From Branchiostoma lanceolatum (lineage: Eukaryota; Chordata; Leptocardii; Amphioxiformes; Branchiostomatidae), in NCBI RefSeq assembly GCF_035083965.1, contig NC_089722.1, positions 28,356,642 to 28,420,641 of the forward strand: DNA of 64,000 bases. Direction: 5' to 3'. The notes beneath the pieces are model-generated. The model was not told where the DNA came from and did not search any database. It was given only the letters and a program-made list of their open reading frames with translations. Within the stretch, counting starts at the first letter, position 1. Every line of letters begins with the position of its first letter. Of this stretch, positions 26,948 through 62,300 are shown one piece after another. The translations under genes and the position numbers were made by a program.

Positions 26948-29900
26948 TTAGTACCTTGCATCATCTGAGACATCATCAGCCTCCTCTACCTCCTCCTCAT
27001 CCTTTTCTTTTTCCTCTGCCTTTTCTTTTTCCTCTGCCTTCTCCTTTTCCTCTGCTTTCTTCTTCTCCTCTGCCTCTTCGCTATGAGCTTTTTCTTCCTT
27101 CTGGGGCGACGACTTTGACTTTGGCTCCTCTTTCTTGCTCTTGTCTCTTGGTTTCGGCTCAAGCTTGATGGAGTTGAAAGACTGGGAAAGATCCTCATCA
27201 GGTGAAGAGCTCTTTGGAGGACTCTCTTTTTGTGCTGTCAAAGGTGCAAGGATGATCAACATTTACATGTCTATACAACTGTTTCCTTCAGTTCTGTTGA
27301 CATCCCTTAAACACCAATGCATCTATCTTGACAAGTTTAAACCAAAAAATATACATACAAAAAGAAGGTGTGTCAACAACATGAAAAAGAACAATTAGAA
27401 TCATTATACTGGTACCTGAATTTCTTCGTGGATGGCTCCCATTCCTTGCAGGAGCTGACTTTCTGGACAACTCTGCATCACTGTTGGGAAGGTTTAGAAA
27501 ACATTACTGTGACACATTTCTCCACCATGTTCCTATAGCAGACTACATATGAAAATTCTACTGGGTCTGTAGCTAATCATAACGTAGTCCCGAAATTATC
27601 TATGTCCATGCCAGCATTATGATATTCAGATGGAAGATTACCATTATATGATACTGTAAATCTTGAAACGTTTACGATGGTGACCTCTCCGCCATGAATT
27701 CTAAACACTGCAAATACACATGTACCTGTTTCAACCCCGAAAACACAACAACTTTTTTTCCTCCTACTGTAAGATAAAACCACTGCAAAAGTAAATGAAT
27801 TTACAGTACTCCCTTGCAATGACTGACCTGTTGGAGCTTTTAGACCTTGCCATTTGTGTCTGCGGTCGTGACCTCCAGACGCTGGGGTCGACAACTCCAG
27901 GCATGGTCTTCCTCGTTGCAAACAGGTACGACCTGTACTTCTCCATCTCCTTCTTGTTGATGTGTCCTTGATGAGGAAATGTGACACTGTCAGATTTCTT
28001 CACTTATGTGTTTGTTAAGCTGGTACAGAAATGAAATTAAACTGTATACATTATAGGAAAACAGATGGGTATTGCATCTTGTAAATTGTGCCAAGAGGCT
28101 TCAAAGCCAAAGCTTTCTTGCAAAACAACTTATCCATGTATTCTGTCTCACAGCAACCATTAATTAACATATCCAAAGCTGTATTAGCACTTAGTATGTA
28201 TAGGAAAGTGTTGAGATGTGAGACAAACTTCTAACTCTGTCACATCTACATGTAGTACTAATGGAGTGAAAGGGTCCACATATGTTGTCCATACCCATTT
28301 TCTGTTGATGCCTGAGAAACTGTTCGTATCTGCCCTGGATGAGCCTCTTCATGTGGGAGGTACTGTACACGGATGCAGTGCTCCACAAGTACTGTCTCTG
28401 GCCCCAATTCAGGTCAGGGTGCTGAAGGCATACAAAAATGTGAAGTTTAACCTGTACAATAGTACATAATGTACCATCTTGGTATCCAAGGTTAACGTTT
28501 TAACAGACATTACATGTATTTAATTAGGTCAGGAGACCTGCATATCACTGTAGATAAAGACATTTGCATGTGACTGAAGATCACGAAAAAGGACAGCTTC
28601 TGGCTTTTAAGACATCTGTCTTTCTATGTGTATTCTATTCTGTGGTATTTATTTCTTTTTTGTAACAAATATTCTCTAACTTAAATCAATATATTCTTAA
28701 CATCTACTAACATAATTCCACCAGGGTACATAATTCTGCCACCCTGAAAATATACGTCCAAATAGATCTCCAACCCAACGTCCCCCAGTATAATGCACTC
28801 CTGTATATCTAAACTGTGCATACCTGGGGGTGCGGGGGGTCCAATGCTTTTCAAAGTGGCAGACTTTATGTACCCCGGCGGATTAATGTTAATGGAGATT
28901 ACTTACTCTGTACATTTTATGATTTTCCCAAGGATGTTGTACGTATGACACAACAGGTGAAGCTAAGGTGTTTGTGATGAGTTACCTGTAGATAGTAGTT
29001 CTTCTTCATGGACGGGGGACAGGTGAAGGCCCTGCGGCGGCTCCAAGACTGTGACGTCAGGGTGTAGGGGAAACTGGGGATCTGGTAACTCATGTGGTAA
29101 CTGTCCTTCATCAGGTACGAGGCAGGGTCTGAAAACATCGCAAACTTTTGTTATTTATGGCCAAAGTGGGACACCCAATCTGAGTTGCAGTGCGGACTTC
29201 ATCAAGTACACTGTAGGAGGGTAGCCTCCATATCAGGCTCTCTGGGCTTTTTTTTGGGCTTGTGATACACTTTTTGCTGATGGCACCTTTTTGTGCTGGG
29301 TCGGTTGTTGCCCAAAAAAGGCCCAGATAGCCTGCTATGGAGGCTAGCAGGAGGCCAGGCCAGAAAACATTGCAAACTTAGAGTTATTTGTGGCCAAAGT
29401 GGGACTCTCTACACTTAGTCTATTGTGGAATAACAGGACTTTCCACTCAACTCACATAGTACGATTTTGTAGCTCCAAAACTGGTCACTTGGCTAGCCTG
29501 ACTAAATCACACTTCTAAGCGACCAGCCCGACAGTTACCGGCCCCCTAGAGGCGATCAATTAATCCCCACCCAAGTAAGACATTGTGTAAACACAGGCTA
29601 GTCACTTGGCTTTGTGGTTAAAATGTACAATTCTAGGGGGGAAAGTTGCAGTAAATGCCAAGTTATTGGTTGATGATTGGTTGATTGATTGGTTGGTTGG
29701 TTGATTGATTGATTGGTCGATTGATTGATTGATTGATTGCCAGAGACATTTTTCATAGTATAAAACAAAACTGTAATATAAACTACACACTGCTAGACAG
29801 AATGTTAAAGCTAACAAATGAAGTGCTAACTTCTGTCTCTCACCTGTGTATCTCCCATGAGTCTCTCCTGCGCCATCGTCGGGTGGCACGCTTTGGCTGC

Positions 29901-36175: not shown

Positions 36176-36529
36176 TATTTGTTCGATCGTCACGTCACGG
36201 TGCGACAGCCAGTTTTAACTACCTGTATCATGCTATAAGCAGTACAGGTCGTACATCTGAGATGTGAATCAATGGGACTCAAATATCACGGACGATTCAC
36301 GGTGCAAATATAGTTAGAAATTTGGGAGTTGTGAGGTCGGAGTGTAAACTGGTGACTTACACAAATACTGGTACATTTCCACACGATTTGATTGTGCTGG
36401 AGTTTGCTCCACAAATTTGTTGGAGTAACTGCAGAGTACAGTTGTGTCGCTAGGAGGAGGAAGAGCACATATCGCTAGTAAAAGGCAGGTAAAAGGGTAG
36501 TCATCATCGGCTGGGAAAAGTATTGAACC

Positions 36530-36610
36530 GTTGTCGGCAGGATTCCAACCTACGCTGGCAGAGCCCAATGGATTTCTAATCAATCGCCTTAACCACTCGG
36601 CCACGACAAC
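36530..36610 (-). tRNA. tRNA-Ser(AGA)-like gene, probably degenerate
   Basis: On the minus strand the 81-nt sequence has a fully paired acceptor stem (GTTGTCG with CGACAAC), a good A box (TGGCCGAGTGG) and an anticodon loop TTAGAAA with AGA. It also has a long variable arm and a T arm, the layout of tRNA-Ser. Two changes count against function. The anticodon stem has a T-C mismatch (ATTGA against TCCAT). The T loop reads TTGGAAT instead of TTCGAAT, losing the conserved C56 that pairs with the D loop and damaging the B box. No clear T-run follows immediately, so this is likely a pseudogene. Confidence 0.6.
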
Positions 36611-38019: not shown

Positions 38020-41000
38020 ATGGCGGAGGGCAACCGGCGTAGGTCCAGGAAGTCCATTACAGGTGTGAGTCTCCTGGGGATAGAGAAGCGCTACGTGCCG
38101 AATAAGCATTACGTAAGTATCGCACAGATAGGACATACAGAGTCTCAACATACAGCTAATGATTGTATAGCACCACTACGTAGGACAGTGAAAGAAAAAC
38201 GGTGGCGTATGCCATGTTGGCTTCAAGATATATCGTTCTTGGTGTGAGTTGGAATGATCCGTGTGTTTGATCCTTAATTGCATTTTCATTCTATTTGTTG
38301 TCTGATATTCAACTTAACTAACAGGGACATCTCGACGACTCGTGACTTGGGAGGGGTACCCTTTTCATCACAAATTTAGATCGATATCTGTTCGTCATTT
38401 TGCCGCAGGGATAGTTTCCATCCGTAGTAATGATTCGTTTCCTTCTCTTTTCCTACATCCTGTTCCTGTTTCAGAAGTTGCAAACTGGCGGAACTGTTGC
38501 AAAAATAGTTTAACCAGCGTGACCCTCCCATTGGGGGGGGGGGGGGTGCGAAAACCATGCATTGTAGTGTTTAAAAACCAGTCGGACGAGGTTGCTCACA
38601 GCTGCATGCTCTAAATCACTTGTCTAATGTCAAAAGACAGCTGGTACCTGCCGCTGTATGGTACACTGCATTATTCACACGTAGACAAACAGCGCTGAGT
38701 CATTCATCGTTAACGTCGGGATGTTCCCCTTTATGACGTCACGTTACATGTATGTAGGACTTTAGAAGCAGACGGATATTATCTACACAATGATGCGTGC
38801 AAGCAGCCAGAATTAGAAGCCTGGTCATGAAGTCGTGGTTTTACACTTTGTTGGTTTTGACTCAAAGCTCTATTGTTGCATGGCCTTTTGTGGGAATGTT
38901 GACCTTGCCGAGGGCACAGTGACACTGGTGCCTACACGCACTGTCCCGGGTTTACAAACTAGTACTGTGTGTGCGATACGCCTAAGGCTAAGTTTTAAGA
39001 GCCGATTAATAAGAGCAAGGAGGTTTAGATGGCCTTGGTATTAAAGAGGGTGTCTAGATCTGCGATGGCGATAAAGAATATGTGACTTCTTTGATCCTTT
39101 TGTATTGTAACGCATTTTATAACTGAAGGGACTACCCTTGAGATTTATAAATGAATAAGTGAATTAATTGTAATTCATTCTATTGCGTGCTTTCGTTTTA
39201 CACCGTTTTATGGGTTTCTATTTCTTGGATTTCAGACAGACGAAAGTTAAATTATACCACAACTAGTGACTTGTTCTGTTTGATGATACAGGGATGGACA
39301 TATACTTGTAGATAGATGAGGAGAGAGAAAGAGACAAAGAGGGAGACAATTTCAATAAGAATATCTAACTGTTAGGTATTCTAAGACTCTGGGTTAAAAT
39401 TTTACAAACGTCTTTGCAATACTAGTAGTGTATCTCCAATACCATCAAGGCTAAAACTCACACTGAATTCGAATTTGACGATATGAATGGAAAGCTAACG
39501 TATAATCATTGTACCACAGTCATACATCCTGTCTGTGAAGTGGTCTGAGGGCAGTGAATTCATCATCTACAGACGATACAGCGCTTTCTTCCAGCTCCAC
39601 GTGAGTAATACGATCTAAACTCAGTAAATGGTTAACACTCCGGTCACGTAGGTCAAAACGTGGTTTCCCGGCACGTGTAAGGTTGTGGGTAGTTGTGTGG
39701 GAGGAATGTAATCTGGGTTTACGCCAAGTTTACAAGGAAATTTGGTTGTCAATGAACTTGACAGTCACGGTATTATTTTAAAGCCCGGACCGGAACTGAA
39801 GGGTGGGCGGTAGTACATACATATCAAAGAGACCACTTGGTTAAGTCTGGTGACTCAGAAACATCATTTTATACAAAGCAAACTTACGCAAAGCAATTAC
39901 ATTTCTTATTTCAGCAAAAGCTTTCCGAGTTGTTCCCAATAGAGACGGGAGCAGTAAGCAAGAAGGACCAGACGATTCCACCCCTACCGAGTAAGTGACA
40001 TCTGAGTAACACACTACATGATCTAATTAGTTCAGACATGTGTGCATGATCAATCAACTTTCGTTTTCGTTTTCTGGAGACTGCTCCAGTACTATTTCTG
40101 ACGTAACTACAGCAAGATCTAGTACCGGTACAATACTGATTGAACATACATATATTTACTACAGTAAAAAGATAGTCATGCATTTAGTATACCGGCCGTG
40201 AGACTATCGAACGATATATATATGTAATAGTTGAGGAACTGCTAGCCTGGATGCCAGACCCCCAATCTCTAACAAACGATGGATATGTTGGCATCCAGGC
40301 CAAGGAACTGCTTGCAACAGCAAGAAAATAGCTTGCTCCGAGTCTGCCAGCTTTAAATGGCATTTTTGGCAGCAACATGTCCAGTAACTCTCGACCACTG
40401 CCTAATTTTAGAGGTCAGCACAATTTCGCAGGTCCCCGTGCAATGTGATAGGATAGATTTTCAGGCAGAAAATGTGCTCAAATCTTTGCCGCTTTTGAAA
40501 TTTGGCGACTCTTTCTGACGATTAACAACTTTAGAAGAAGGTCGTCGACAGTGTTACGTAGCCTCCGATGCAGACTCAACCCGGCTGTTTTCTTTTTCAA
40601 GTTATTGTTTTTATACTATTGTACTTTTTTCTCATTGCTGGCCGGCAATAAGAAAAAAAGTATAATTATTATAGTATAAAAACAATAACTTGAAAAAGAA
40701 AACAGCCGGGTTGAGTCTGCATCGGAGGCTAAGTGTTACGCCGACTTTAGGTCAACCACTTTCCATTGTTGCCTAAAACGTTAATTTCATCCACAGAGCA
40801 GAGATGGTTTGGGAACGAGAAGTTCAAGGTGGCAGACGAGAGGATGCTGACGATCGACGAATATTGCCGAAAAGTTGCGATGGCCGAGCCGAAGATTTCC
40901 GAACACGAGGAAGTGCTGTCCTTCTTCGATACGTTGCCAGAAGACCTGGCCCCTCCGCCTCCCGACCCGTATGTAACAGGGGTATTTCTTGTCAGCTAAG

Positions 41001-44000
41001 AATGTCCATAAGTCCATGTTAAGGACTTCATACTGATGCGAGCTAGCGTGCGAATGAAAAAAAATGAAGTTTGGAATCTACGTGGTCAGGAAGGCTAAAC
41101 AAATCACTAAGCATACATAGCGAATGGCATAGCGAATAATAGCTTCTTCATTTTCATTTCTTCACATCTTCTTCGAATTGAATTGAGTTTGGCACTCTGC
41201 GACTTAAGATTCACTTCAATACTTCCTTCTTTTTAATTTGCGGCATATATTTGATAATTTTGCAGGTAGCTGCTTTGTACGATTTACCATATGGTCGAAA
41301 ACTTTTTAATGGACGAAATTGATGCGCGCTCGAATGCCATCCATATAATCCAATCAACATGGCCTAAACTAGATTTCAATTTTAAGATCATGTGTCTTAT
41401 TTTTCTAATCTTTCCCTGCAATCCTTACGTGGTAACAATTGTCGACCATAAGATGGGTGGTGATGAGTACATAACTTTGGTTTGATGTCTTGCCCAACAG
41501 GAAGAAACCAAACAAGACGTACCTGACATTCCAGTCGAAAAGTGGAGAAACCCAAATCAAAGAGAAATCGGCGGAGAAATCAGGTATGATGGTACCATTT
41601 GACACATCGATTTGACTTGGTGTACATGTCATAGCCAACCAACCAATTTCAGTCGGCTATTGCTCTAACCCCCACCCCACCTCCCACTACCGCCAAAAGA
41701 AATGTCTTCATTAGCGAACGCCTATGAATTGTGCATCCATCCTAAACATACGGGGTGCTTATCAAGTATGGTGAGGTTACTCAGTTTCTCCTGATCTGAC
41801 CAATGGCTGTGCATAATAAGCAAAGAATCTGCCAATTTTGTAGTCTAGGCAAAGTAGAAGAAGAAGTACATTTCATTCTAGACTATCCTTTGCATGATAG
41901 CGACAGAACAATTCTCTTCAGTTATGTGTTAAGTAAATTTTCCTTCTTCAGATACCTAAATAGTAGAGAGAAATTCATATTTCTTACAGCCTTCGATAAA
42001 CCAACTGAGCAACTCTAACTAATCATACAGCCTCCTACATCTATACAATTACCAAGAAACGAGAGGAAGTCGAAAGTACTAGAGTTAACTAAATGATTAT
42101 ATACTCATGAATATATAGTATATACATGTAGTTGTTAACATGTGGCCTGTGCTTAGCCCAGTGGGGCAAACATGTTCCTTAAAGGTCTTCATTCAATAAA
42201 TAGTTGATACGTACGACGTGACACCCCACAACGCCTGTGTTAACTGGAATGATTTATATCTAGCCCTTATGGGCATCAACTTGAACAAAGCTCACTGTTT
42301 AATGGTCCTGTTTGATCGCACCTGTAGGAGACGACCTGCAGATCTCAGCGCCCATCCTCCTGGAGACGTACCGAGCGATCGCCACCTTCTCGCCTAGCGG
42401 GAAAACTGAGGTCCGCCTGGTGGAGGGAGCGCACGTGGACGTGGTGGAGAAGAACATGAGCGGTAGGGAACCCGTTTGTATGGAAAGTCTTATGATAGAC
42501 AGAAAGAACCCACGACACCTTTCGAAAAAGAGTAGTGCCCCGGTGTGCGATGGTTCTAAGTTCTAAGTTAGTGATTCACCGCAAATCACCCGATGAAATA
42601 ATCTCTTTGCTAGATGGATGGCTGGCTGGCTGGCTGGAGGGAGGGAGGGAGGGAGGGAGGGAGGGAGGGAGGGAGGGAGGGAGGGAGGGAGGGAGGGAGG
42701 GAGGGAGGGAGGGAGGGAGGGAGGGAGGGAGGGAGGGAGGGAGGGAGGGAGGGAGGGAGGGAGGGAGGGAGGGAGGGAGGGAGGGAGGGAGGGAGGGAGG
42801 GAGGGAGGGAGGGAGGGAGGGAGGGAGGGAGGGAGGGAGGGAGGGAGGGAGGGAGGGAGGGAGGGAGGGAGGGAGGGAGGGAGGGAGGGAGGGAGGGAGG
42901 GAGGGAGGGAGGGAGGGAGGGAGGGAGGGAGGGAGGGATTAGATAGATGTAGCCTTGAAAGTGGTGGTAATTAATGCCTGATAAACCGATCTTATCTATC
43001 ATGAATGGCCCATGAAGTAAAGTTGACATCTTCACCCGTCCAGGCTGGTGGTTGGTGCAGGTGGATGAGAAACAAGGCTGGTGCCCCGCCTCCTACCTAG
43101 AACCTCTGGACCAACCAGAGGAGAGAGACGAGGAACGTCCCAACTGGGAAGGTACAAGAGTCTTTCTGAAATATCAGAATGAAAGGAGGGACCATAGGCA
43201 CAGTCTGATCACACAAAAACACGCACACACGTGCGCGCGCACACACTTACTCACTCACTCCGAGTCACACACACACACACACACACATACTGTACATAGA
43301 CGTACGTGAATACACTGAACAGACTCAATGATACCCGAGACGTTTTCCCTTAGCCACGAAGAATAGGATGATAGTGTGCTTGGGGTAAATGGAGACTTGA
43401 TCCTAACAGAGATCTTGTATAAACGTCGAACAACTGTCAAACAGATGCACATCGTGCGTCTAACTCCTGAACGACTTGTACTACAGCATTGGGGTTCTTG
43501 TTCAGAAACAAGACTTCTATGCAAATGCCACCCCATGCATAGTCCTAAACCTTCGCGTCTCTTTCTCTTAGGGGAAGAGTTCCTGACAACAGAACAGTAC
43601 GAGGCACAGATAGATGATGAGATCGGTTTTGACAAAGACGTGATTGTTCACGTGATCCACAAGCTCCTGGACGGTTGGTGGATTGTACGGTAAGTACTAA
43701 TCGTCGACGCCCTTGGATTTCCATGAACGTGTTTACAAAAACGAACACAGATATTTTATATTTGCTACGGCTCAAGCCAGTGAGTATTATTGTAGCTTGT
43801 TCGCTGCGGTTACGGTGAAAGTATATTTGCCCAAGATGATACAAGCTTTGGTGAAATATGTTTTTCTTTCCATATCTTACTTCACGTATTTCTCACCATT
43901 GGCTGAAGCTGATAAGTCAACTCGCTGGAAGTAGTAGCAAGACCATATTGACTTGTTTCTACAGGTACAACGACAAAGTAGGTTACGCCCCTTGCGCCTA

Positions 44001-47000
44001 CCTGGAGAAGTACACCAACCCCCACCTGACCCTTAACAAGGCCCGTGCAAGGATAGGCAGTGACACAACTACCGGCTCCTTCATCAAGAAGCTGCCCCCG
44101 AGAAGGTCAGTAATAGACTAAAAAGGTATTTTTTGTACCAAATGACGCTCCACGACAAATCTCTTCAGCAAATAAGTCGAATACCTCCGTATTGATTACA
44201 AGCATTTTCATTATCTGTATTTTGATGACGTATACAGTACGTTTCTAACATTGGAATTGTCTTGCTGTTTTCTGTGATTTTCTTTTCGTTTCTTTTGAAA
44301 ATTATGAATGTTTTTAAATGAATGGGCTGTGTGAATTAGCTATAATTCAGACTGTTGACTTTCTGCCAAATGCTAATAAAGTTCTTTAAATTTGATTTGT
44401 AATGGGGTTTTTAACAATAATGTGCCCTGGAGTGATACCGTTGGTTATCAAAGTTCTTTTTGTAAAGGGGAATGGTAGTTGTTGCCCTTATGAGTTTGTT
44501 AGTATGCGATGTTAGCGGTACGCTCAACCCAAGGAAGACACCGGAGTCGTGCTACGTTTGAAGACGTCTGTATTCGTTCCGTTCTCTGTCCAAGACTCTA
44601 TTCGAGTCTCAACTACATGAGTACATGAGTTGTATTTCCCTATTCATATATTTCCTTACCGCCTACACATTTATTTCTAAGAAAAAATACATTGTTCTCA
44701 AACTAGCTACTTCCTGGTCCCATCCAAGATGTTAAAGAATTATCCGCATTTGACCACTTTCCCAAAGATGGTCAGCCTGGCACTACACCCCCATGGTAAA
44801 AGGTCATTGAAAGGGATCATTAATATATAAATGGTTTTATTCGCAAATTCATACAGAGCTAAAACAACATTGCAGCCTAATGATACAAAGTAAAAAGGCT
44901 GAATTACGCAGTTTCAGGGAATACACAACTGTACAAAATATCATCAATATTTACAAACCTAACCAAAACTGAACAACAAGGATATGTAGAAACGGTAGTA
45001 GGGTGATTATGGCCCATCACCACTACATCTACTCTTACTCTTGATTACTTAACTAATTAACTAATAAAATTGAGAAAACAAGACGACCACTCCCCTTTCC
45101 AAGAACAGAACAGAACAGGGACAGTCTGAGTGTACACGGAACTAAAAGTGAAGATGTACAAGGAACTATATTATATCATAGTACAAAGGGTAGCTAGTCT
45201 ACCCTATTACATTTTCATCGCTTTAACTTACCAAAGAAGGAAAAGTGGCATGCTATTGTAAGAATGGTTTTGCTTTAAATGTCTGTATTTCAATGTTTTA
45301 GAATCGTTTGGTTGTCTTTCAACGTGACTGATTTCCCTCATTACAGGTCTACTATCCAGAAGAAGAGCAGTGCCCACGAAAAGGAGCCAAAACAACGCGA
45401 CCTGCAAATCTACAGGCGCAAGACTCTTGAGGCCTCTAAAAGAGCTAACCTGGCAGCCAAAGCAAAGGAGGCTTACAGGAGGGTAAGTGCTGTGACGGAG
45501 GAACCCGATGAGGAAGGGAGGTACCTGGATATGGCCGGCGATACAGTGGCCAGTACTGCCGCGGAGGGATACATCTTACCTGACAACGCCGTGAAGAAGT
45601 TCGATCATCCGTACGTCAATGAAAGTGTGGTGGAGGAAATCGCCGGTCGAAAGGCCAGATCTTCTGATCCACGTTCAACAGGGAAAACCCCCGCCACAGA
45701 ATCGTCCCACGTCTATTTCAACGACGAGAAAGTCCTGACGCATGCGCAGGGAACCGCCAGCTCGGGCAACATTTACGTAAACGAGGAGTCTCTGACAGAA
45801 GCACATGCAGGCAAGGCTGGTGAGAGTAAAGCAGACGAAGTTTGGACACCAGCGTTCGTGTCATCAAAAAAACAGGCGGCGTATATGGATATGGCCGGCG
45901 ATGCAGTGGTCAATAATGCCGCGGAGGGATACATCTTACCTGACCACGCTGTGATGAAGTCCGATCATCCGTACGTCAATGAAAGTGTGGTGGAGGAAAT
46001 CGCCGGTCGAAAGGCCAAATCTTCTGATCCACGTTCAACAGGGAAAGGCATGGTCACAGAATCGTGCCACATCTACATCAACGACGAGGAGGTCCTGGCG
46101 CATGCGCATGAAACCGCCAGCTCGGCGGGCAACATTTACGTAAACGAGGAGTCTCTGACACAAGCTCAGGGGGGCAAGGCTGGTGACAGTTCGGCAGACG
46201 ACATTTGGGCACCAGCGTTCGTCTCATCAAAAAGCAAGGCGGTGGAGACAAGAAACAGTAACTCCTCCAACAGAGCTGTTTGGGAGCCAGCCTTTGTCGA
46301 TGAAGAGAAAAGCAATAAGGATTTTCCTAAGAATCCAGGTTATATCGACAGTAACACTGTGGCGTCCATGACAGGAAAGAGGACACGTAAAAACACACAG
46401 TTTATGAATCTCGGATACGCGCCTGACGCCCCCGTCCGTTCGGATGCCTGGAACCCAAAAGGACCAAACTCTGACAGCAACGCTTCGATGGACTCTGCCT
46501 ACGAAAACATTCATGTGCACCAAACTACTGTCGCAAAAGGAATGGCAACGCGGCCACAACATGGTCCGAGCCCAAGAGCTCCCCGGACGCCAGTCCCAGC
46601 ACCCAGGAGTACAACTCCAATCTTGCTGCAGTTACCGGGGACAGGCAGGGGGACTGAGTCTCACAGCGGTAGTTCAACTCCTAAAAGCGGCCGCTCCACG
46701 CCCCGGAGCGGCCGATCCAGCCCAAGGAATGGTCGTCTGAGCCCCGGTATCCCAGCCAGACCAACGGCAGCAGAGATAACAGCAAAGTGCAGTTCGCAAA
46801 CCAAACTACAGTTCCTACAGCCTCATCAAGACCCAGAGAATTTCGTTTCCAGTGGTAGCAATGGTCGTTTAATTCCAAGGAGCGGTCACGGTACGCCCCC
46901 TAGCGGCCGTTCCACTCCTAATGCTAGGGTCACATCTCCAAGCCGGGGCCCGACCGGGCTGTTTGAGAAAACAAAGAATAAAAGCTCAAAATCAAGAATG

Positions 47001-47024
47001 TACATAACGTATGGTAAGGAATAA
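38020..47024 (+). CDS. p47phox/NCF1-like NADPH oxidase organiser, copy A, 10 exons
   Basis: Exons: 38020-38112, 39520-39600, 39915-39990, 40797-40968, 41501-41583, 42328-42462, 43044-43151, 43572-43689, 43965-44105, 45347-47024. All are GT-AG and in frame, giving 894 residues (human p47phox 390). The order is a PX domain (about 14-140; LLGIEKRYVPNKHY, basic YRRYSAFF, ELFPIE), SH3-A (about 178-238; GWW at 214-216), SH3-B (about 256-306; LLDGWW), then PPRRSTIQ and a basic YRRKT/YRRVS stretch matching the autoinhibitory region. A late segment (about 802-825; PARPTAAEITAKCSSQTK) matches the p67phox-binding C-terminus of p47phox. The family holds p22phox through its tandem SH3 groove and brings p67phox to the membrane oxidase. 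The extra tail (395-790) contains 120-residue repeats. NOXO1 and SH3PXD2 are less good fits. Confidence 0.87.
40243..40302. mobile_element. 60-bp TAGCCTGG MITE with 9-bp TSD
   Basis: TAGCCTGGATGCCAGACC and GGCATCCAGGCCA are inverted ends, flanked by AGGAACTGC on both sides (40234-40242 and 40303-40311). It is related to the longer copy at 60671-60792 and lies in intron 3 of copy A. Confidence 0.8.
40559..40731. mobile_element. 173-bp TAGCCTCCG foldback MITE with 9-bp TSD
   Basis: Long, almost perfect inverted arms (TAGCCTCCGATGCAGACTCA inwards for about 68 bp) are flanked by AGTGTTACG (40550-40558 and 40732-40740). It lies in intron 3 of copy A, about 65 bp before exon 4. Arm identity is near perfect, suggesting recent insertion. 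Confidence 0.85.
42637..42938. repeat. 300-bp (GGGA)n tract
   Basis: About 75 uninterrupted AGGG tetranucleotides, preceded by (CTGG)n, lie in intron 6 of copy A. The long open frames across it in every phase are artefacts of the repeat. G-runs of three at four-base spacing could form G-quadruplexes on the plus strand. Confidence 0.95.
43205..43290. repeat. CA/CG-type dinucleotide microsatellite
   Basis: Interrupted (CA)n with a GCGCGC patch, in intron 7 of copy A. Confidence 0.8.
45522..46244 (+). repeat. In-frame 360-bp tandem duplication in the copy A tail exon
   Basis: Unit 1 (45522-45881) and unit 2 (45882 to about 46244) encode residues 395-514 and 515 to about 635. Each unit carries Y(L/M)DMAGD, EGYILPD, DHPYVNESVVEEIAGRKA, Y(F/I)NDE, GNIYVNEESLT and W(T/A)PAFVSSK. 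A third, eroded echo (VWEPAFVDEE) follows at about 46276. Unit spacing is exactly 120 codons at the start; a three-base insertion lies in unit 2. Confidence 0.9.
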
Positions 47025-47262
47025 TGATTTTTTTAAAGTTTTGTGTGTTTTGTTGTCTTCTATATCATAGTTTTCGTTCCGGCAAGCTGCCCGGCCGGGC
47101 CCCGGCTTGGAAATGTGACCCCAGCATTAGAGTGGTCGATCCAGTCCCAGAAATGGCCGCTTGAGCCCTGGCGCCCAGTCCAAAGGGACAATAGAAGAAA
47201 TTGCTGCAAAATTCGGTAACATTACTAAGGCCTTGCAGCAAAAATAAACAGACGGTCACGCT
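47025..47262 (+). pseudogene. Rearranged duplicate of the copy A C-terminal coding sequence
   Basis: Just 3' of the copy A stop, 47085-47134 is an inverted copy (about 90% by eye) of coding positions 46913-46962. It is joined to 47131-47244, a direct relic of about 46700-46790 that translates as SGRSSPRNGRLSPG then TIEEIAAK and stops. The direct part is out of frame with the main ORF. An AATAAA at 47243 may be the copy A poly-A signal. This segment may simply be 3' UTR. Confidence 0.65.
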
Positions 47263-52299: not shown

Positions 52300-52432
52300 A
52301 AGACTTGACGCTCGTCTGAGAATGGGTAAAGAGAAGCGCCACAACATGCCGGTGGACAAGTCGTCTCGACATACCCTCACACGTGCGACAGTCCTGGGCA
52401 TTGAGAAGCGCTATTTACCAAGCAAGCACTAC
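52300..52432 (+). CDS. p47phox-like copy B, first coding exon
   Basis: After the acceptor at 52299 a 22-nt leader precedes ATG at 52322. The exon encodes 37 residues (MGKEKRHNMP...) ending TVLGIEKRYLPSKHY and stops at a phase-0 donor (TAC/GTGAGT). The last 15 residues match exon 1 of copies A and C and the start of the PX domain of p47phox. No exon 2 follows before copy C's own first exon 6 kb away, and a LINE fills much of the gap. Exon 1B is therefore either an orphan of a broken gene or an alternative first exon splicing into copy C exon 2, which has the matching phase. Confidence 0.75.
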
Positions 52433-52970: not shown

Positions 52971-53589
52971 TCAGTCTACTACTGCCACAGAGCGTCTGTT
53001 AATTCGTAGCTACCCTGTAACGTGACGGGGGAAGGGGGCTAAAATACATACATGTATATAGCATATACTAGGGTGGGTCAAAATAATGCAAGTGGTTTTA
53101 TTACAGACACATTTTTTATCGAATGAGTTGAAATTTGGCACAAGTATAAAGGCACAAATCTTCTTGATACTAGTATGGCTAGGAGTCCTTTCTGTGACGT
53201 CACGATCCGTTGCTAACTTGTCCCACCAAAGAGCACACAGTAGACAATTGATTTAAAGATAATATACTTTTACTAGATGCTATCAGAAAAGACCAGATTT
53301 TTACGTAAATGATGGGGAATTGGGAAAGTTCATTCCACTGGCACTTCAAGCTGACTAATATATCTAAAAGACCAAATGGTGTTAGACTATTGCACAATGT
53401 ACTAGTATGCATATGTAACTTGTTGCATTGCTACTATGATAGATGTATAGCTTTATTTGTATTGTATTGTTGTACTTATGTTGATCGTTCTTCATTACCA
53501 AAGTTTATGTTCACAGCAATGGGTATGTCCAATCTAATTATACTGGGTTTAACGGTTCTGAATGGATTGCTGAGAAGGTGCGCCAAATC

Positions 53590-56500
53590 ATGCCAATAGA
53601 TATTGAACAGTACAGGGCAGTCATTGGCATGTTTTCCGCTGGTTTGACTTTTACTATTAAGTTAAGCCTTAAGTATACACTTAGCTTAGATAAGTGCTTC
53701 TCATATACGCTAGCATGTATCTCCGTTATTGTGATTCTTCTAGCGGGAGACATCCATCCCAACCCAGGGCCAGTCTCTCGTAAAGATTTAAATTTTATGC
53801 ACATCAATGTCAACAGTTTGGTAGCCGGTACCAAAATGGACGAACTGTCCGCTCTCGTAGTTAGATTTAAGCTCGATGTTGTCGCCATCTCAGAAACATG
53901 GCTGGGCGAGTCTGTTGATTCAGTTGCTATCTCTCTTGATGGCTTCCAGGCTCCGATACGACGTGATAGAAACCAGCACGGTGGTGGTGTCCTTATTTAC
54001 ATATCTGACCAGATCGCATACAAGAGACGCTCAGATCTGGAGCCCAAATCTGTTGAATGTATCTGGCTGGAACTATTTGCAGGATGCTATCGTGTCATAT
54101 TTTCTGTTTACTACCGCCCACCTGGCCAGGACGCCAGTACTGCTAATGAATTTATTGACTTATTTACTGACTCAGTCTTTGCAGCTGGGTCCTCTAATTA
54201 TGACGCCGTCATAATTACAGGTGACTTCAATGCCAAGCACAATGCATGGTGGGCTCCTGACCCAATTACCTCTGTCGGCTCAAAACTATTTCAAGCATCG
54301 ACTATGTTAAACCTTACCCAGGTGATTAGCGAGCCGACATGTGATTTGTCACGTTCCCCTTCTTTGATTGACTTACTGTTTACTGATATGAAGAATCTTG
54401 TTAAATCTACCACAGTTTTGTCTCCCCTTTCTGGATGCCACCACTGTCCCATAATTACTACTTTTAATATGTCCTTAAAGTCCCCGCGCCCTTATATCCG
54501 CACTATCTGGGAATATCCTAAAATCGATCATGACTTATTAGCTGAATTTTCGTCTGATTCCAAATGGCATGAAATTTTTTACTGTAACGCTGTTGATGAT
54601 GCATGTTATAAGCTGGTAGATCTTATATTTGAAGCCAAAACCAAATGTGTTCCCCATAAGGACATTCTTATAAGACCCAGAGATAAACCATGGATGTCTC
54701 CCAGGATTAGATCGTTGATGCGTCGGCGAGACAAGCTACATAGGAATGCTAAAGTTTCGAACAGTACCACACTGTGGTCTGCATACCGTAATGTCAGAAA
54801 TAAACTAGTACGCGAAATATTACTTGCTAAGTCTAACTACAACAGCCGTCTCGCTGACTCCTTGACGTCTTCTCCTTGTTCTAGCAAGAAATGGTGGCAC
54901 ATTGTTAAATCTTTCTATTGTAGTAAAGTGAGTTCTAATATTCCTCCCTTAAGGTCAGGTCACTTGTATGTAACTGATTCTTGTGAAAAGGCAACCATGT
55001 TCAACAATTTTTTCACTGCTCAGGCCTCTGTAGATGACACCAAGGCAAGCCTCCCACAACTTGATTTTCTCACTGATGTCCGATTTTCAGAATGTTTAAC
55101 CACACCTGCCGAGATTGAACTCTATGTATCTTCTCTAGATATATCCAAAGCGTGTGGTCACGATAATGTTGATAATCGCTTTCTTAAACTCATATGCCCT
55201 TACATATCTGATAAGATCGCTTACGTTTTCAATTTGTCATTTTGCCATGGTGTCTTTCCAAAGGCCTGGAAACGGGCAAACGTGGTTCCAATTTTCAAAA
55301 AGGGAGAACCAGATGATGTATCTAATTATCGCCCCGTATCTCTGTTGCCCTGTTTGTCCAAAATTTTAGAAAAAATTGTATCGAAACACTTGTATAACCA
55401 TTTGATGTCTCAAAATTTACTATATTCCCTCCAGTCGGGCTTCATCCGCGGAGATTCGACAGTAAATCAACTTATTTGTATTACTGATAAAATCTTTAAT
55501 GCTCTAGATTCCAACAAAGAAGTCAGAGCGGTTTACTTAGACTTTTCTAGAGCATTTGACAAAGTCTGGCATAAAGGACTTATGTTTAAGCTGCAGAGAA
55601 ACGGGGTCGACGGCCCAATCTTAAATTGGTTCCATAGCTACCTCTCTGACAGAGAGCAAAGAGTTGTTATTGATGGTCAATGTTCGGATTGGAGTTATGT
55701 TGGCGCAGGTGTACCTCAGGGTTCAGTTTTAGGGCCTCTCTTATTTCTTGTCTTCATTAATGACATGGTGGACGGTCTAGTTACATGCCCTTTTTTATTT
55801 GCTGACGATAGTTCATTATTGGACATTGTGGAAGATCCTAACGTTACAGCTGATCGACTCAATACTGATCTTGGGAAGATATCATTTTGGTCTTCAACAT
55901 GGCTTATGAACCTAAACCCTTTAAAAACTGAAGAAATGTGTTTTTCTAAGAAATCAAATCCTCCCGACCACCCCCCTCTTCTTCTTGATAACTGTGTTAT
56001 CAAATCAGTCAAAACCCACAAGCATATAGGGACTTTTCTTACGTCCACCTTGTCATGGGAAACACAAATTTCTCATATGATTGGCAAGGCGTCCAAACGA
56101 GTGTCCACTCTTAACAAATTGAAATTCAGATTATCACGAACAGTACTTGATGTTATTTATAAATCCTTTATTCGTCCTCTCCTTGAATATGCTGACATTA
56201 TTTGGCATGGATGTACTTTATATGATTCCCAGCGATTAGAACGTGTCCAATACGAATGCGCGCTTGCAGTCTCAGGGGCTGTAAGAGGGTCTTCGTATTC
56301 TTCGCTACTTTCTGAATTAGGTTGGGAAAAACTTTCGGATCGTCGTCACGTTCACTCTATGATCATGTTTTACAAAATTGTCCATGGCCATACTCGCCAG
56401 TATCTTAAGGATTTGATCCCTCCTGAAGTCTCCATTTCTACTTCTTATAATCTTCGCAACAAACTTAATCTAAGGATACCGCTCTGCTCTACAACTCGAT

Positions 56501-56991
56501 ATCAAAAGTCTTTTATTCCTTATGCAACGCATCATTGGAACGGTCTTGGTATAGCTGTTCGATCCTTAAATCTTTCGTTGTTTAAAAAACATCTAGTGAA
56601 ATTAGTACGTCCCTCTTTCTATTCACATTTTAGTCATGGCCCCCGGTACACTTGCGCCCTCCTCACACGCCTTCGCACCGGCACGTGCAGTCTTAACCTA
56701 AGTTTATTTACACGCAACTTAGCAACAAGTCCAGCCTGCACTTGCGGATGTCGAAGCGAAAGCGTTGCTCATTATCTTTTGTACTGCCCTATATACAATC
56801 AACAAAGACTCAACCTTCTGGGCAACCTACGGAACCTTTTAGCCCCTATTCTTGATATCGATACTTTGTCTGATCAAGCCTTCATTTATTTATTATTAAG
56901 AGGTTCATCCTTCGTTTCGTATGATTTCAACTGTAACATTTTAGGCTTGACTCAGCACTATATTTTGACAAGCAGACGTTTTAAAACTTAG
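53590..56991 (+). CDS. LINE ORF2-type polyprotein: endonuclease and reverse transcriptase
   Basis: The first ATG (53590) opens 1,133 codons. Counting from an in-frame GTG at 53578, a hydrophobic stretch (VILLAG) leads to GDIHPNPGP at residues 57-65, a 2A-like motif. An APE endonuclease follows (HINVNSL, AISETWL, ITGDFNAKHNAWW, CHHCPI). The reverse transcriptase has NYRPVSLLPCLSKILEK, YLDFSRAFDKVWH, GVPQGSVLGPLLF and the catalytic FADD at 741-744. The C-terminus has a Cys/His cluster, CTCGCRSESVAHYLLYCP. No stops or frameshifts interrupt it. No separate ORF1 with a Cys-His nucleocapsid domain was found upstream. Confidence 0.92.
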   Translation: MPIDIEQYRAVIGMFSAGLTFTIKLSLKYTLSLDKCFSYTLACISVIVILLAGDIHPNPGPVSRKDLNFMHINVNSLVAGTKMDELSALVVRFKLDVVAISETWLGESVDSVAISLDGFQAPIRRDRNQHGGGVLIYISDQIAYKRRSDLEPKSVECIWLELFAGCYRVIFSVYYRPPGQDASTANEFIDLFTDSVFAAGSSNYDAVIITGDFNAKHNAWWAPDPITSVGSKLFQASTMLNLTQVISEPTCDLSRSPSLIDLLFTDMKNLVKSTTVLSPLSGCHHCPIITTFNMSLKSPRPYIRTIWEYPKIDHDLLAEFSSDSKWHEIFYCNAVDDACYKLVDLIFEAKTKCVPHKDILIRPRDKPWMSPRIRSLMRRRDKLHRNAKVSNSTTLWSAYRNVRNKLVREILLAKSNYNSRLADSLTSSPCSSKKWWHIVKSFYCSKVSSNIPPLRSGHLYVTDSCEKATMFNNFFTAQASVDDTKASLPQLDFLTDVRFSECLTTPAEIELYVSSLDISKACGHDNVDNRFLKLICPYISDKIAYVFNLSFCHGVFPKAWKRANVVPIFKKGEPDDVSNYRPVSLLPCLSKILEKIVSKHLYNHLMSQNLLYSLQSGFIRGDSTVNQLICITDKIFNALDSNKEVRAVYLDFSRAFDKVWHKGLMFKLQRNGVDGPILNWFHSYLSDREQRVVIDGQCSDWSYVGAGVPQGSVLGPLLFLVFINDMVDGLVTCPFLFADDSSLLDIVEDPNVTADRLNTDLGKISFWSSTWLMNLNPLKTEEMCFSKKSNPPDHPPLLLDNCVIKSVKTHKHIGTFLTSTLSWETQISHMIGKASKRVSTLNKLKFRLSRTVLDVIYKSFIRPLLEYADIIWHGCTLYDSQRLERVQYECALAVSGAVRGSSYSSLLSELGWEKLSDRRHVHSMIMFYKIVHGHTRQYLKDLIPPEVSISTSYNLRNKLNLRIPLCSTTRYQKSFIPYATHHWNGLGIAVRSLNLSLFKKHLVKLVRPSFYSHFSHGPRYTCALLTRLRTGTCSLNLSLFTRNLATSPACTCGCRSESVAHYLLYCPIYNQQRLNLLGNLRNLLAPILDIDTLSDQAFIYLLLRGSSFVSYDFNCNILGLTQHYILTSRRFKT

Positions 56992-58554: not shown

Positions 58555-59155
58555 ATGACGGACGAGAATCAGTTGAAGAAGATCATCGCAGGTGTAAGAC
58601 TACTGGGGATTGAGAAGCGCTATGTGCCCAACAAACATTACGTGAGTACATGGAGCTTCAAGCTAGCGCTTTGTACAGTCTTTGATGACGGACAAAATAT
58701 AATTTTGGTGCTTGAACCATACTACGATATAACCTGGTGCACTCCAAGAGGCATGTTAAACGTTGTCTTCTCAAACTAACTAGTAACTATGTAGGGGCGG
58801 GGTCCCCTCTGGGGTAACTTATCTTGCAGTCGGAGCAGGGACTGTGTTATAATCCGTAACCCCCGTGATGTTTCTTTGCCGCTTCGTCTCATGGACTGAG
58901 ATGACATGAACAAACAGCGAAAGGAGATACATACTAACGCTAGTACAGTTATTTTGTAAATTCCACCTGTTCACTGTATACGTACCGGGCCCAAACTAGC
59001 AGTACCCCGTTGTTGTCTTAAACAGACCTGTCAGACATGGTACATTGTGTACTTGTCTAAAGTGGACAGCAAACCTTTGGCCGATTTCTGCCCACTGAAA
59101 GGTCAGGTGAGGTATGTTTTTGTTAATTGGTAGTGCTATCTATGCTATTTTTCAA

Positions 59156-59338: not shown

Positions 59339-62300
59339 GTACACATATAAATGACACACACACTGCGTAACAGATGGCCTTGAACTGCCAGTCTGAAAGA
59401 ATTCGTTCTCCGGTTCACCCGATACTACGGTCTTACACGTTTACCAAGTCAATACACTTTTAAAAGCTTTTAAAAGCCCCTTGTGCCATTGATTTTACCC
59501 AGAGAGCTCCCCAGAAATGTGCTGGCCCATGACCAAGACTACGCAGCTAGCGGAACACCCCTGCATAAGTTGTCAACCATACCAAGGACATTATATATAA
59601 TGTCCTTGACCATACGTAGACAAATCATATATCACTGCCTGGTTATATTTCACTTCCAGATGTGTGAGAAGATAATTATAGATTCAATGTTTCCCGCATT
59701 CGGTGGATGGGGTTAACTTGGCATAGACTTTGACGCCACCGCGCTCCAAATGCGTATTGTATTTCTCTAGTCTCGGAAATCACAGATCTGTTCGTGGGTA
59801 TTGAAATTGTTTCTCATTTCAATGGCATGACTCCTAAAACACTATGCAAATTGCTGCCCATTGAATAGGTAACGTGTGTGTGTGTGTGGGGGGGGGCTTT
59901 GCATGTTCGAGAACTAATTGTTCCCTTTTAGCGTCGCTTCGAGTCTTCACACGTTAACGGATGTGCAGACATTGCTGCAGATGTCCTTGTCAACCGGCCG
60001 CTGTTGTGTGATAAACAAACTGTACAGTTAACCGTCTCTGCACGCAATCGTGTTTTGTGCTCACAGTACTGTGGCGGGACACAATGGATGCTATCTTTAA
60101 CTCTGCAAAAGAGATACCCCGGGCAATGCATGGACATTATCCAGGGATCGCACCAGGAGGTGCTAGGGATAATTACCACGTAAGAGACAATAGCTTGGAA
60201 AGTAAAGCTTGATGTGGCAATTAAGCTTGGGGACACTGCGACGGCCCCGTGCTGCCCCTGCTTCAATGAGGGTCTTCATGCTCTTTTCCGTAAGACGTAG
60301 TCAGCCTATTTATATTTCCCGTTATTTTGTAGGGAACAGACGTCTTGTTCACGTAAGTAGCGAGGCAACCTTAATTATTCTTCCGAAATTGGCGTGAAGC
60401 GTTGCCGGTACTCCCCATGCAGACCCTCGTAAAGTGAAAAGTAGAGATATAAGAAATGAGTCTTCAGAACTGCGAAAAGCTTTAATTTGAAAATACCTGA
60501 GCTAGTTCTAACCTTGGTGACATTCCTGTCCACTAGTGCATTTCCATTTCTTTCGAGAGAGGAGAATTAGCCATCTCCGGACCAGAGGCCCGTCACAACA
60601 TGCTTGTCCACCCGTGATAAAGCTGCGAAGAAAAAGATCCAAGCCTAATCTGACAGGGAGCCGTTTGCTATAGCCTGGATGGCAGACCCCCAATCAGATA
60701 TTTTAGAGAACGTTATGCTAAACGTTATGCTGCGCCTGTGGCTGAATAGCTATTAGGTAGGTGAGGTGAGGTGAGGTCTGTCATCCAGGCTACGTTTGCT
60801 ACGAAAACACAAAACGTTCTTTACACCTTACATAACTCGCTTTGCGTTGTTCGGGAGAATCGTGCTGACAATGACATAGCTCGCTTTGAGTTCCACCCGA
60901 CTGTGACGGTCCGTTGACTTCACAGTGCACGTATTCCTTGAAAAGCGGATACCACTTGAGACACAATACACATTTCGAAGAAGGAGAACGAAGGGATGTT
61001 TTTGACATTTAACGTGTATGTGACGATTTTAGATAGCATTTGGGCACAAAACTACTGATGCAGACACCGCGAAATAAAGTCTCCGCAAACATGTTCCTTT
61101 TCACCACTAGACCCATGTTAACAAAGCCCGAATACCACAGGTGTTAGTATATAAAGGGACGTGACCAGAATGATCACTAGCTATCTTTAGAGACAAGTGG
61201 AGGATGAGTTTAGAGCAACAACACCAGGTAACTGTTTTGAACCAGAAGCACACAATAAAAATGAAAGAGGAACTGACTACTAGTACCATGTACTTCCCTT
61301 ACAGTGACAGTACAGTTCGTGCATACATTATTGTTACAAACATCGGGGGTAAAGAGATGCGTCTTCTTTTCCGTCTACACGGGATATTTGATGGTTGTAT
61401 CACACCACCTCTTTTGAAAACGTTGACCGATGCTATTCTTGGTCAACTAGCTAGTCAAAGTTGATCGTTTGGTGCCCGTTTATGCCCCTCTCCCCCCCCC
61501 CCCCCACACACACGTGCTGGCGGCATGGAATTGGGTCCAGCAAAAGTATTCAAAGTAATAATTAAACCATGGCTGATGATGTCTACGTTGTATGTTGATC
61601 GCTTGTATCCTAAAACTCTGATGTATCAAATGTTTATTCCTCCACAGTTATACATTCTGTCTGTGAAGTGGTCTGAGGGCAGTGAATTCATCATCTACAG
61701 ACGATACAGCGCTTTCTTCCAGCTCCACGTAAGTAACGCGATATGTTAACTCTGATGTAACTCTGTAGGGTCTAGTCGTTACCATTCCAGTCACGTAGAC
61801 CACATCGTGGTTTCCCGGCCCGTGGAGGAATGTAGATAAAGAACATGTGGTTACAGGATGTTAAAGAAGGATTAGAGTTTAAGTTGACGAGGAAATGTGG
61901 AACCGGTTGTTATAGTAGACAGTTGAGAGTGACTTTTGGAAACTGACAGGAAAGTGTAGCCTCCATAGCAGGCTCTGCTGGGCCTTGGGGATGGGGCGGG
62001 GGTGGGGGGGGGGGGGGGGGGGTGGGCTTTTACCGTGTCAAATGGTTACACAAACGACCCAGCACAAAAAGAAGGCCCAAAGAGCTTGCTACTACGGGAG
62101 GAAAATGTAGGTTGGGTGGGATAGTACCGAAGAGAGTTCGCTGCAAAAGTCTACATGTAACGTTATATCCTATTCGGAACTCGAGGTGCAGGGATCATCC
62201 TTAGCCTGAGTACCAGCCTCCGTAGGTACTCAGGCTAGATCATCCTAGCCTAGAGTCCAGTCTTGTTAGCTTTGGTACGCCCAACGTCGGCTAACTAACG

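Follow-up and report, generated by a model that had tools for sequence, protein, structure and literature searches.

A lancelet p47phox-type NADPH oxidase organiser gene with a putative tyrosine-docking array between its regulatory and p67phox-binding parts

The window, namely the whole 64,000-nucleotide stretch of Branchiostoma lanceolatum DNA analyzed here, contains a p47phox-type gene whose assembled model comprises ten exons (38020-47024, + strand) and encodes a protein of 894 residues. All nine introns are of the GT-AG type and the ten exons join in frame. The last exon, which spans 1678 nt and is entered in phase 2 through the acceptor ccctcattacag/G, contains an uninterrupted open frame of 558 codons and has a GC content of 0.53 versus 0.36 in intron 9 and 0.40 downstream. 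The exons are:

38020..38112, + strand: exon 1, start of the PX domain (gene model; tblastn with the human p47phox sequence, 60% over 20 aa)
39520-39600, 39915-39990 and 40797-40968, + strand: exons 2-4, PX domain (gene model; Pfam, residues 39-128)
41501-41583, 42328-42462 and 43044-43151, + strand: exons 5-7, linker and first SH3 domain with GWW at 214 (gene model; Pfam)
43572-43689 and 43965-44105, + strand: exons 8-9, second SH3 domain with GWW at 284 and start of the autoinhibitory region (gene model; Pfam)
45347..47024, + strand: exon 10, final coding exon of the model, ending in TAA (gene model)

Additional p47phox copies lie nearby, of which one (copy B) shows exon 1 only and another (copy C) leaves the window after exon 3.

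A Pfam search of the protein recovered the PX domain (PF00787, E 4.1e-14) and two SH3 stretches only in the 894 residues, with matches exceeding the Pfam cut-offs. In an alignment with 8wej read by eye, the human PX residues R42, P73 and R90 correspond to R49, P80 and R99. Both tandem SH3 domains bear the GWW signature, thereby retaining W193 and W263 (human numbering), while F209, described as an essential SH3 residue of human p47phox in the main text of PMC2121648, is replaced by Tyr. The segment LPPRRST (332-338), which spans the junction of exons 9 and 10, is the sole match to the tandem-SH3 motif, and fits its strong form as published. The adjoining autoinhibitory region gives an NCF1_PBR_AIR (PF16621) match at 330-361 (E 2.8e-4; 21.1 bits, under the 25-bit cut-off) and is covered up to residue 364 by an alignment with 1uec in a search of PDB sequences; by eye, S303 is kept, S304 is changed to Thr, and the S328 position is occupied by Thr or Ser (YRRKT/YRRVS). 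Among the 60 PDB matches listed, the best nine are NCF1 (8wej, E 5.3e-73), with SH3PXD2A (2ega, 7.8e-12) and NOXO1 (2l73, 5.7e-11) among the weaker ones. The PX domain, the two GWW-containing SH3 domains, the PPRR motif and the p67phox-binding segment described below support the identification of the gene product as a p47phox-type NADPH oxidase organiser. An SH3PXD2 (Tks4/5) identity was rejected, as it requires additional SH3 domains and only the above two are present.

The features of the last exon are as follows:

45348..45497, + strand: remainder of the autoinhibitory region, containing YRRKT and AYRRVS (residues 337-386; NCF1_PBR_AIR, 1uec; end placed by eye)
45480..45488, + strand: internal alternative donor AGG/GTAAGT, last exon base 45482, phase 0 (score 6.3)
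45516..45875, + strand: tyrosine repeat unit 1, 120 codons (Y395 YLDM, Y411 YILP, Y425 YVNE, Y459 YFND, Y479 YVNE)
45876..46238, + strand: tyrosine repeat unit 2, 121 codons (Y515 YMDM, Y531 YILP, Y545 YVNE, Y579 YIND, Y600 YVNE)
46500..46511, + strand: Y721 YENI, after the repeats (assembled protein)
46677..46742, + strand: SGRSTP-type Ser/Thr-Pro repeats, residues 780-801 (TP780, TP787, SP794, SP801), adjoining the p67phox-binding segment upstream
46743..46817, + strand: p67phox-binding proline-rich region and C-tail, PGIPARPTAAEITAKCSSQTKLQFL, residues 802-826 (visual comparison with the residues given in PMC2121648)
46893..46940, + strand: second Ser/Thr-Pro cluster (TP852, TP859, SP866; sequence)

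A sequence-only reading of this DNA had regarded about 560 residues of the last exon as additional to human p47phox. The open frame is of that length; nevertheless, its first ~50 residues are autoinhibitory region and residues 802-826 match the human p67phox-binding segment, leaving ~415 added residues (387-801) between these two parts and a 68-residue C-terminal extension (827-894). The other elements of that reading were recovered in the assembled protein: the two repeats of about 120 residues, the ten tyrosine motifs and the YENI at the same residue numbers, and the SGRSTP-type repeats followed by the conserved p67phox-binding segment. In this segment, seven of the eight vertebrate-invariant p67phox-binding residues (P363, P366, R368, P369, I374, R377, C378, T382) are identical, R377 being Lys; of the other C-tail residues K383 is kept while L373 and K385 are not.

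The two repeat units differ at 45 of 360 aligned nucleotides and by one in-frame codon indel, and both are net acidic. Order-promoting residues constitute 0.18 of the tail (380-870) versus 0.31 of the PX-SH3 part, a composition that by itself suggests that the tail is probably disordered. Comparisons of the tail with Pfam and PDB sequences yielded no match at E up to 10, and six peptide patterns from it were not found in viral contigs, which is unsurprising for a gene of animal origin. The data did not support a third, degenerate repeat unit downstream of 46238: the best local match (VWTPAFV/VWEPAFV) was equalled in 189/1000 shuffles for unit 1 and 139/1000 for unit 2. Comparison of the segments at Y395 and Y668 gave P=0.068.

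All five tyrosines of unit 1 lie in YxN, YxxM or YxxP motifs, a result not obtained in 20000 shuffles (P<5e-5), and three of the five are in YxN (P=0.00045); YxxM and YxxP taken singly gave P of 0.04-0.15 and 0.19-0.66 in the three sets tested. With unit 2 left out, such motifs account for 6/12 tyrosines in the tail versus 2/14 in the PX-SH3 part (Fisher P=0.061). The flanks of the YxN sites within a unit resemble one another (shuffle P=0.019); hence, the three sites per unit may derive from a single module as sub-repeats and would then not be independent. Open frames did not exceed 280 codons in any of 1000 first-order Markov sequences with the composition of the tail, against 558 codons in the gene. 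Codon-usage scoring lent no support to the tail frame, with the true frame scoring -3.2 versus 0.2 for frame +1 over the whole tail, and -16.4 versus 5.0 for another frame in the part after the repeats; GC3 is 0.54 in the tail versus 0.70 in exons 1-9.

Taken whole, the repeats look neutral. Their Ka/Ks of 1.26 (bootstrap 0.65-3.07) does not set the coding frame apart from the two wrong frames (0.80 and 1.09), the nucleotide differences are spread evenly across codon positions (15, 16, 14), and the 31 amino-acid changes observed compare with 31.1 expected under random substitution, so that in this one repeat pair neither Ka/Ks nor random substitution detected overall purifying selection. All five motifs were kept in 3.2% of random-substitution trials (P=0.032) and 22.6% were stop-free; consequently, neither motif retention nor the stop-free frame is strong evidence. 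Amino-acid changes at the tyrosine and the +2 and +3 positions number 0/15 versus 31/105 elsewhere (P=0.008, for one repeat pair of one gene), which is modest evidence that the tyrosine-motif residues may be constrained.

The protein is closest to vertebrate p47phox/NCF1, with which it shares the PX domain, tandem GWW SH3 domains, PPRR motif, and p67phox proline-rich region and C-tail as well as its best PDB matches, but which lacks the ~415-residue insert and the C-terminal extension. In the human sequence a single tyrosine lies past the second SH3 domain, and none there is in a YxN, YxxM or YxxP motif. Tks4/Tks5 (SH3PXD2B/A) are not known to have a p67phox-type segment or a repeated tyrosine array; the lancelet protein has both, and only two SH3 domains. 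According to PMC7663256, Tks4 and Tks5 are p47phox-family Src substrates tied to Grb2/Nck and NOX1/p22phox; PMC3765130 states that Src phosphorylation of Tks5 depends on PI3K and the PX domain, and PMC2121648 describes two or three SH3 domains past the tandem pair. For sea urchin and Ciona, PMC2121648 describes p47phox-like proteins with a PX domain, bis-SH3, an autoinhibitory-like region and a lineage-variable C-terminal region, with extra SH3 domains and without the C-terminal proline-rich region, whereas the lancelet protein has the vertebrate-type proline-rich region and the tyrosine array. The sequence-only reading had further proposed an oxidase organiser fused to an IRS/Gab-like scaffold. 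The docking proteins of the IRS/Gab/Dok type combine a lipid-binding N-terminus with a disordered tail bearing YxxM and YxN sites, a combination that this protein shares, with disorder here being predicted. The proposed fusion is an analogy: proteins of this group have a PH (and PTB) domain ahead of their tyrosine-rich tail, and membership was rejected as the whole lancelet protein has no Pfam match to either domain at E up to 0.01; its tail has no match in Pfam or PDB at E up to 10.

We favor, at even odds (probability about 0.5), a p47phox-type organiser with an inserted and amplified, probably disordered, acidic tyrosine-rich segment that would serve for docking and connect kinases to the oxidase. 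We infer that the tail is transcribed, spliced and translated in the animal and that it is phosphorylated, engages SH2 partners and takes part in a PI3K-PX loop. At rest, the tandem SH3 pair would hold the PPRR motif as in p47phox. Upon phosphorylation of the tail by a membrane tyrosine kinase, the YxxM pair, whose 120-residue spacing suits the two SH2 domains of p85, would recruit PI3K p85, and the YxN sites would recruit Grb2-type adaptors; Crk is a further candidate for docking on the tail motifs. PI3K would then generate PIP3 and, through a 5-phosphatase, PI(3,4)P2, the lipid preferred by the p47phox PX domain according to the main text of PMC2121648. The organiser might thereby help to provide the lipid that anchors it at the membrane next to the receptor, with its far end carrying p67phox. 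More tentatively, and somewhat short of even odds, a NOX2-type organiser may here have become its own kinase docking platform, uniting PX domain, p22phox/autoinhibition switch, p85/Grb2 sites and p67phox carrier in a feed-forward loop on one molecule.

Alternatively, the tail could be a translated, flexible, Ser/Thr-Pro-regulated linker grown by repeat expansion, with the tyrosine motifs being by-products of copying that have no SH2 role. The near-unity Ka/Ks and the random-like amino-acid changes fit such a spacer, as do the possible sub-repeat origin of the YxN sites and the 12 [ST]P sites of the tail, situated in the stretch that in human p47phox carries the SP sites, flanked by the autoinhibitory region on one side and the p67phox segment on the other. 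The unchanged tyrosine, +2 and +3 positions speak against it. So does codon choice at the motif residues, provided that the YxN segments are ancient duplicates: the residues have then been retained although their codons differ (TAC/TAT for Tyr, AAT/AAC for Asn, GAA/GAC/GAG for the acidic residue). We consider this explanation less likely than the docking segment. It is far more improbable still that the tyrosines serve something other than SH2 docking, such as AP-2-type YxxPhi sorting or a tyrosine-based control of autoinhibition: YLDM, YMDM and YENI fit the former, and Y..[LIMVF] describes 4/17 tail tyrosines (379, 395, 515, 721), but the commonest motif, YxN (7/17), falls outside the YxxPhi class, with YENI alone fitting both.

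Another possibility, which we regard as improbable, is that the tail is alternatively spliced, with the full array restricted to some cells or to a minor form. Donor 45482 outscores each of the nine donors in the gene model, whose scores range from -0.9 to 6.0; downstream acceptors score up to 6.4, and use of this donor could remove the tail, giving a short isoform that ends just past the autoinhibitory region without the p67phox segment. A second route, joining donor 45819 (score 5.1) to acceptor 46042 (4.3), both in phase 1, would excise 74 codons in frame, including Y515, Y531 and Y545. On the other hand, the two acceptors scoring at least 3 in 45480-47260 are in phase 1 and out of frame for donor 45482, and of seven downstream joins tried six yield 2-15 residues after AYRR, while the seventh (47131) reaches a degenerate p67phox-like unit through an acceptor scoring -5.5. 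Moreover, the conserved p67phox segment sits within the 558-codon frame, which implies that the full exon 10 is translated now or was so recently.

With regard to the docking-segment reading, the earlier suggestion that no protein of such layout had been described requires qualification: the predicted tyrosine-docking array within p47phox, between the regulatory and p67phox-binding parts, is new, but kinase-substrate organisers of the p47phox family are already known in Tks4/Tks5. Among open-licence literature, titles on p47phox with amphioxus or YxxM included none on this layout, although the protein may have a database annotation, and no paper was found on amphioxus NADPH oxidase together with NCF1, on neutrophil cytosol factor in Branchiostoma, or on p47phox in lancelets. 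The tail may link tyrosine-kinase signals straight to control of the ROS-making NADPH oxidase, and, should it work as predicted, this lineage would have receptor-tyrosine-kinase/PI3K signaling wired directly into a phagocyte-type oxidase organiser; in vertebrates a comparable tyrosine-kinase link falls to relatives of p47phox, for example Tks4/5. The presence of a p67phox segment of vertebrate type in a non-vertebrate is possibly also new: the 2007 survey in PMC2121648, whose main text does not contain the words lancelet, amphioxus or Branchiostoma, reports the p47phox-p67phox tail contact for vertebrates but for neither Ciona nor sea urchin. The segment found here bears on the time of origin of this contact.

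The p47phox-type gene designated copy A was rebuilt from splice sites as a ten-exon model in which all nine introns are GT-AG, the phases agree across all exons, and the frame of 895 codons has its sole stop as the final codon. Exon 10, proposed by the sequence-only reading, is present and joins this model in both splice sites and phases, and the tyrosine residue numbers of that reading match the resulting protein exactly. The two tail repeats of about 120 residues that it described were likewise recovered, with 120 aligned residues. Intron 6 also contains a (GGAG) array of 75.8 copies with 100% matches (42636-42938).

Features of copy A (exons from the splice-site model, repeat units from the repeat alignment)
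38020-38112 (+), exon 1
39520-39600 (+), exon 2
39915-39990 (+), exon 3
40797-40968 (+), exon 4
41501-41583 (+), exon 5
42328-42462 (+), exon 6
43044-43151 (+), exon 7
43572-43689 (+), exon 8
43965-44105 (+), exon 9
45347-47024 (+), exon 10
45516-45875 (+), tyrosine repeat unit 1
45876-46238 (+), tyrosine repeat unit 2

Pfam searches recovered a PX domain (E 4.1e-14) and two SH3 stretches (SH3_1, E 2.2e-15), while the NCF1 autoinhibitory model scored 21.1 bits, under its cut-off of 25. A PDB sequence search gave 68 matches at E up to 0.001; in the best 60 of these, the top nine are all NCF1 (8wej, E 5.3e-73), the alignment with the NCF1 structure 1uec (E 6e-42) reaches residue 364, and non-NCF1 matches are much weaker (SH3PXD2A 2ega, 7.8e-12; NOXO1 2l73, 5.7e-11). 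Two GWW triplets and one LPPRRST correspond to published tandem-SH3 signatures (PMC12730246). The segment PGIPARPTAAEITAKCSSQTK retains 7 of the eight residues that a 2007 survey (PMC2121648) lists as invariant for the proline-rich region and C-tail of vertebrate p47phox, with R377 replaced by Lys; that survey describes sea urchin and Ciona p47phox-like proteins as being without this region, and its main text contains no lancelet names. The copy A protein belongs to the p47phox family.

Exon 10 encodes, in order, the rest of the autoinhibitory region, about 415 residues with no Pfam or PDB match, the p67phox-binding segment, and a 68-residue extension. The earlier layout, with the array in exon 10 and the conserved p67phox segment after it, thus holds, but must be amended in that the exon opens with the autoinhibitory remainder and the insert is about 415 residues. 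The array is thus flanked on both sides by conserved parts of the protein, all in a single open frame, and this position is the best argument that it is translated. In 1000 first-order Markov sequences of tail composition, the longest open frame was 280 codons, short of the 558 codons seen here. The GC content is 0.53 in exon 10, 0.36 in intron 9, 0.40 downstream and 41% in the window. Against translation, the tail has a GC3 of 0.54 where exons 1-9 have 0.70, and codon usage learned from those nine exons does not favour the true frame, which scores -3.2 over the whole tail (other forward frames 0.2 and -19.6), 9.6 over the repeats (7.1 and -21.7), and -16.4 over the stretch after them (-11.4 and 5.0).

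The tail is rich in the candidate SH2-docking motifs YxN (Grb2-type), YxxM (p85 of PI3K) and YxxP (Crk-type), which account for 11 of its 17 tyrosines versus 2 of 14 in the PX-SH3 part (Fisher P=0.006), or 6 of 12 when unit 2 is left out (P=0.061). All five tyrosines of unit 1 lie in a motif, which was matched by 0 of 20000 residue shuffles; individually, YxN (3 of 5 tyrosines) gives P=0.00045, YxxM P=0.043 and YxxP P=0.19, and any motif in the tail minus unit 2 gives P=0.003. The three YxN segments of each unit are also alike outside the motif (P=0.019 versus shuffled flanks; up to 20000 random triples of windows included 40 that did as well), so that they may derive from one module copied long ago. 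If so, their motif residues use differing codons (e.g. Tyr TAC/TAT, Asn AAT/AAC).

Aligned over 360 nucleotides and 120 residues, the two units show 45 nucleotide and 31 residue differences, besides a single codon indel that keeps the frame. Ka is 0.144 and Ks 0.114, a ratio of 1.26 (bootstrap interval 0.65-3.07), against 0.80 and 1.09 in the wrong frames; the differences fall evenly on the codon positions (15, 16 and 14), and random substitution would on average give 31.1 amino-acid changes where 31 are seen; hence the repeat as a whole has drifted, with no detectable constraint. The Y, +2 and +3 sites are unchanged (0/15 versus 31/105 elsewhere, one-sided Fisher P=0.008); this set, chosen from general SH2 preferences, is one of four tried, the others being the tyrosines alone (0/5, P=0.22), -1 to +3 (4/25 versus 27/95, P=0.16) and -2 to +4 (5/35 versus 26/85, P=0.049). 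In 20000 trials of random substitution at the observed rate, all five motifs survived in 3.2%, and 22.6% were stop-free. That the motif positions stayed unchanged while the rest drifted is suggestive, though not strong, evidence of constraint on the motifs.

Candidate splice sites offer possible alternatives to the full tail. Scored with a donor consensus, AGG/GTAAGT at 45482, in phase 0 directly after the autoinhibitory-region residues AYRR, reaches 6.3, higher than any of the nine model donors (-0.9 to 6.0). The two acceptors scoring at least 3 within 45480-47260 (45682 and 46042) both have phase 1, which does not match the frame of this donor. Six of seven downstream joins tried add 2-15 residues after AYRR; that to 47071 yields FSFRQAARPGPGLEM, which by eye loosely resembles the human sequence there. 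The seventh, to 47131, would run into a degenerate second p67phox-like unit, but through an acceptor that scores very low (-5.5). Given this strong donor and these joins, a short isoform is possible, which via the six joins would be devoid of both tail and p67phox segment. Donor 45819 (5.1) with acceptor 46042 (4.3), both phase 1, is predicted to remove 74 codons in frame, including Y515, Y531 and Y545, and retention of intron 9 to end the protein at ...RRSVID.

Several features surround the 3' end. A donor TATG/GTAAGG at 47013 (+; 5.6) could swap the last three residues for a longer C-terminus via the weak acceptor 47071 (1.8). The stop codon lies between the arms of an inverted repeat (46918-47007/47041-47130; 90 nt, 72% complementary, 33 nt apart). 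A degenerate second copy of SGRSSPRNGRLSPG and the p67phox-like segment follows at 47131-47241 (+), with 21/33 residues identical over 47131-47229, the PxxP lost, a TAA at its end and AATAAA at 47243.

Copy A is most likely a p47phox whose linker turned into a docking tail, and SH2 docking that couples kinases to ROS production is plausible. A membrane kinase would phosphorylate the tail, p85 and Grb2-type proteins would be recruited, and PI3K products would then supply the PX domain, whose preferred lipid in p47phox is PI(3,4)P2 (PMC2121648); the step from motif to binding we infer from general SH2 preferences. Tks4 and Tks5 are a close precedent: they share the N-terminal architecture, and are Src substrates tied to Grb2 and Nck and serving NOX1/p22phox (PMC7663256); EGF-induced Tks5 phosphorylation requires Src, PI3K and the Tks5 PX domain (PMC3765130). 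Copy A differs from them in that its array stands in a protein with just two SH3 domains and a p67phox segment of the vertebrate type.

Further p47phox-like exons, with boundaries set by eye, occur at 52346-52432, 58555-58641, 61648-61728 and 63445-63520 (+). A lone exon 1 among them is either copy B or an alternative first exon belonging to copy C; the latter has exons 1-3 within the window, its SH3 and tail would fall past the window end, and its exon 2 is apparently near-identical in DNA to that of copy A. A LINE-type element at 53485-56991 (+) has an open 1168-codon frame with endonuclease and reverse transcriptase, near whose start lies GDIHPNPGP, which we take to be similar to a 2A skipping peptide; a literature search for this likeness in the element gave no match. 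This LINE, the GC content of the window and the p47phox relations would fit an invertebrate deuterostome such as a lancelet, and any dating of the p67phox segment hinges on that origin. Neighbouring frames match Rad9 (12183-12410, -; E 5e-8) and FAM216B (28194-28499, -; E 1.5e-7), and a tRNA match at 36529-36610 (-; 49.3 bits) is the sole Rfam match in the window at gathering score.
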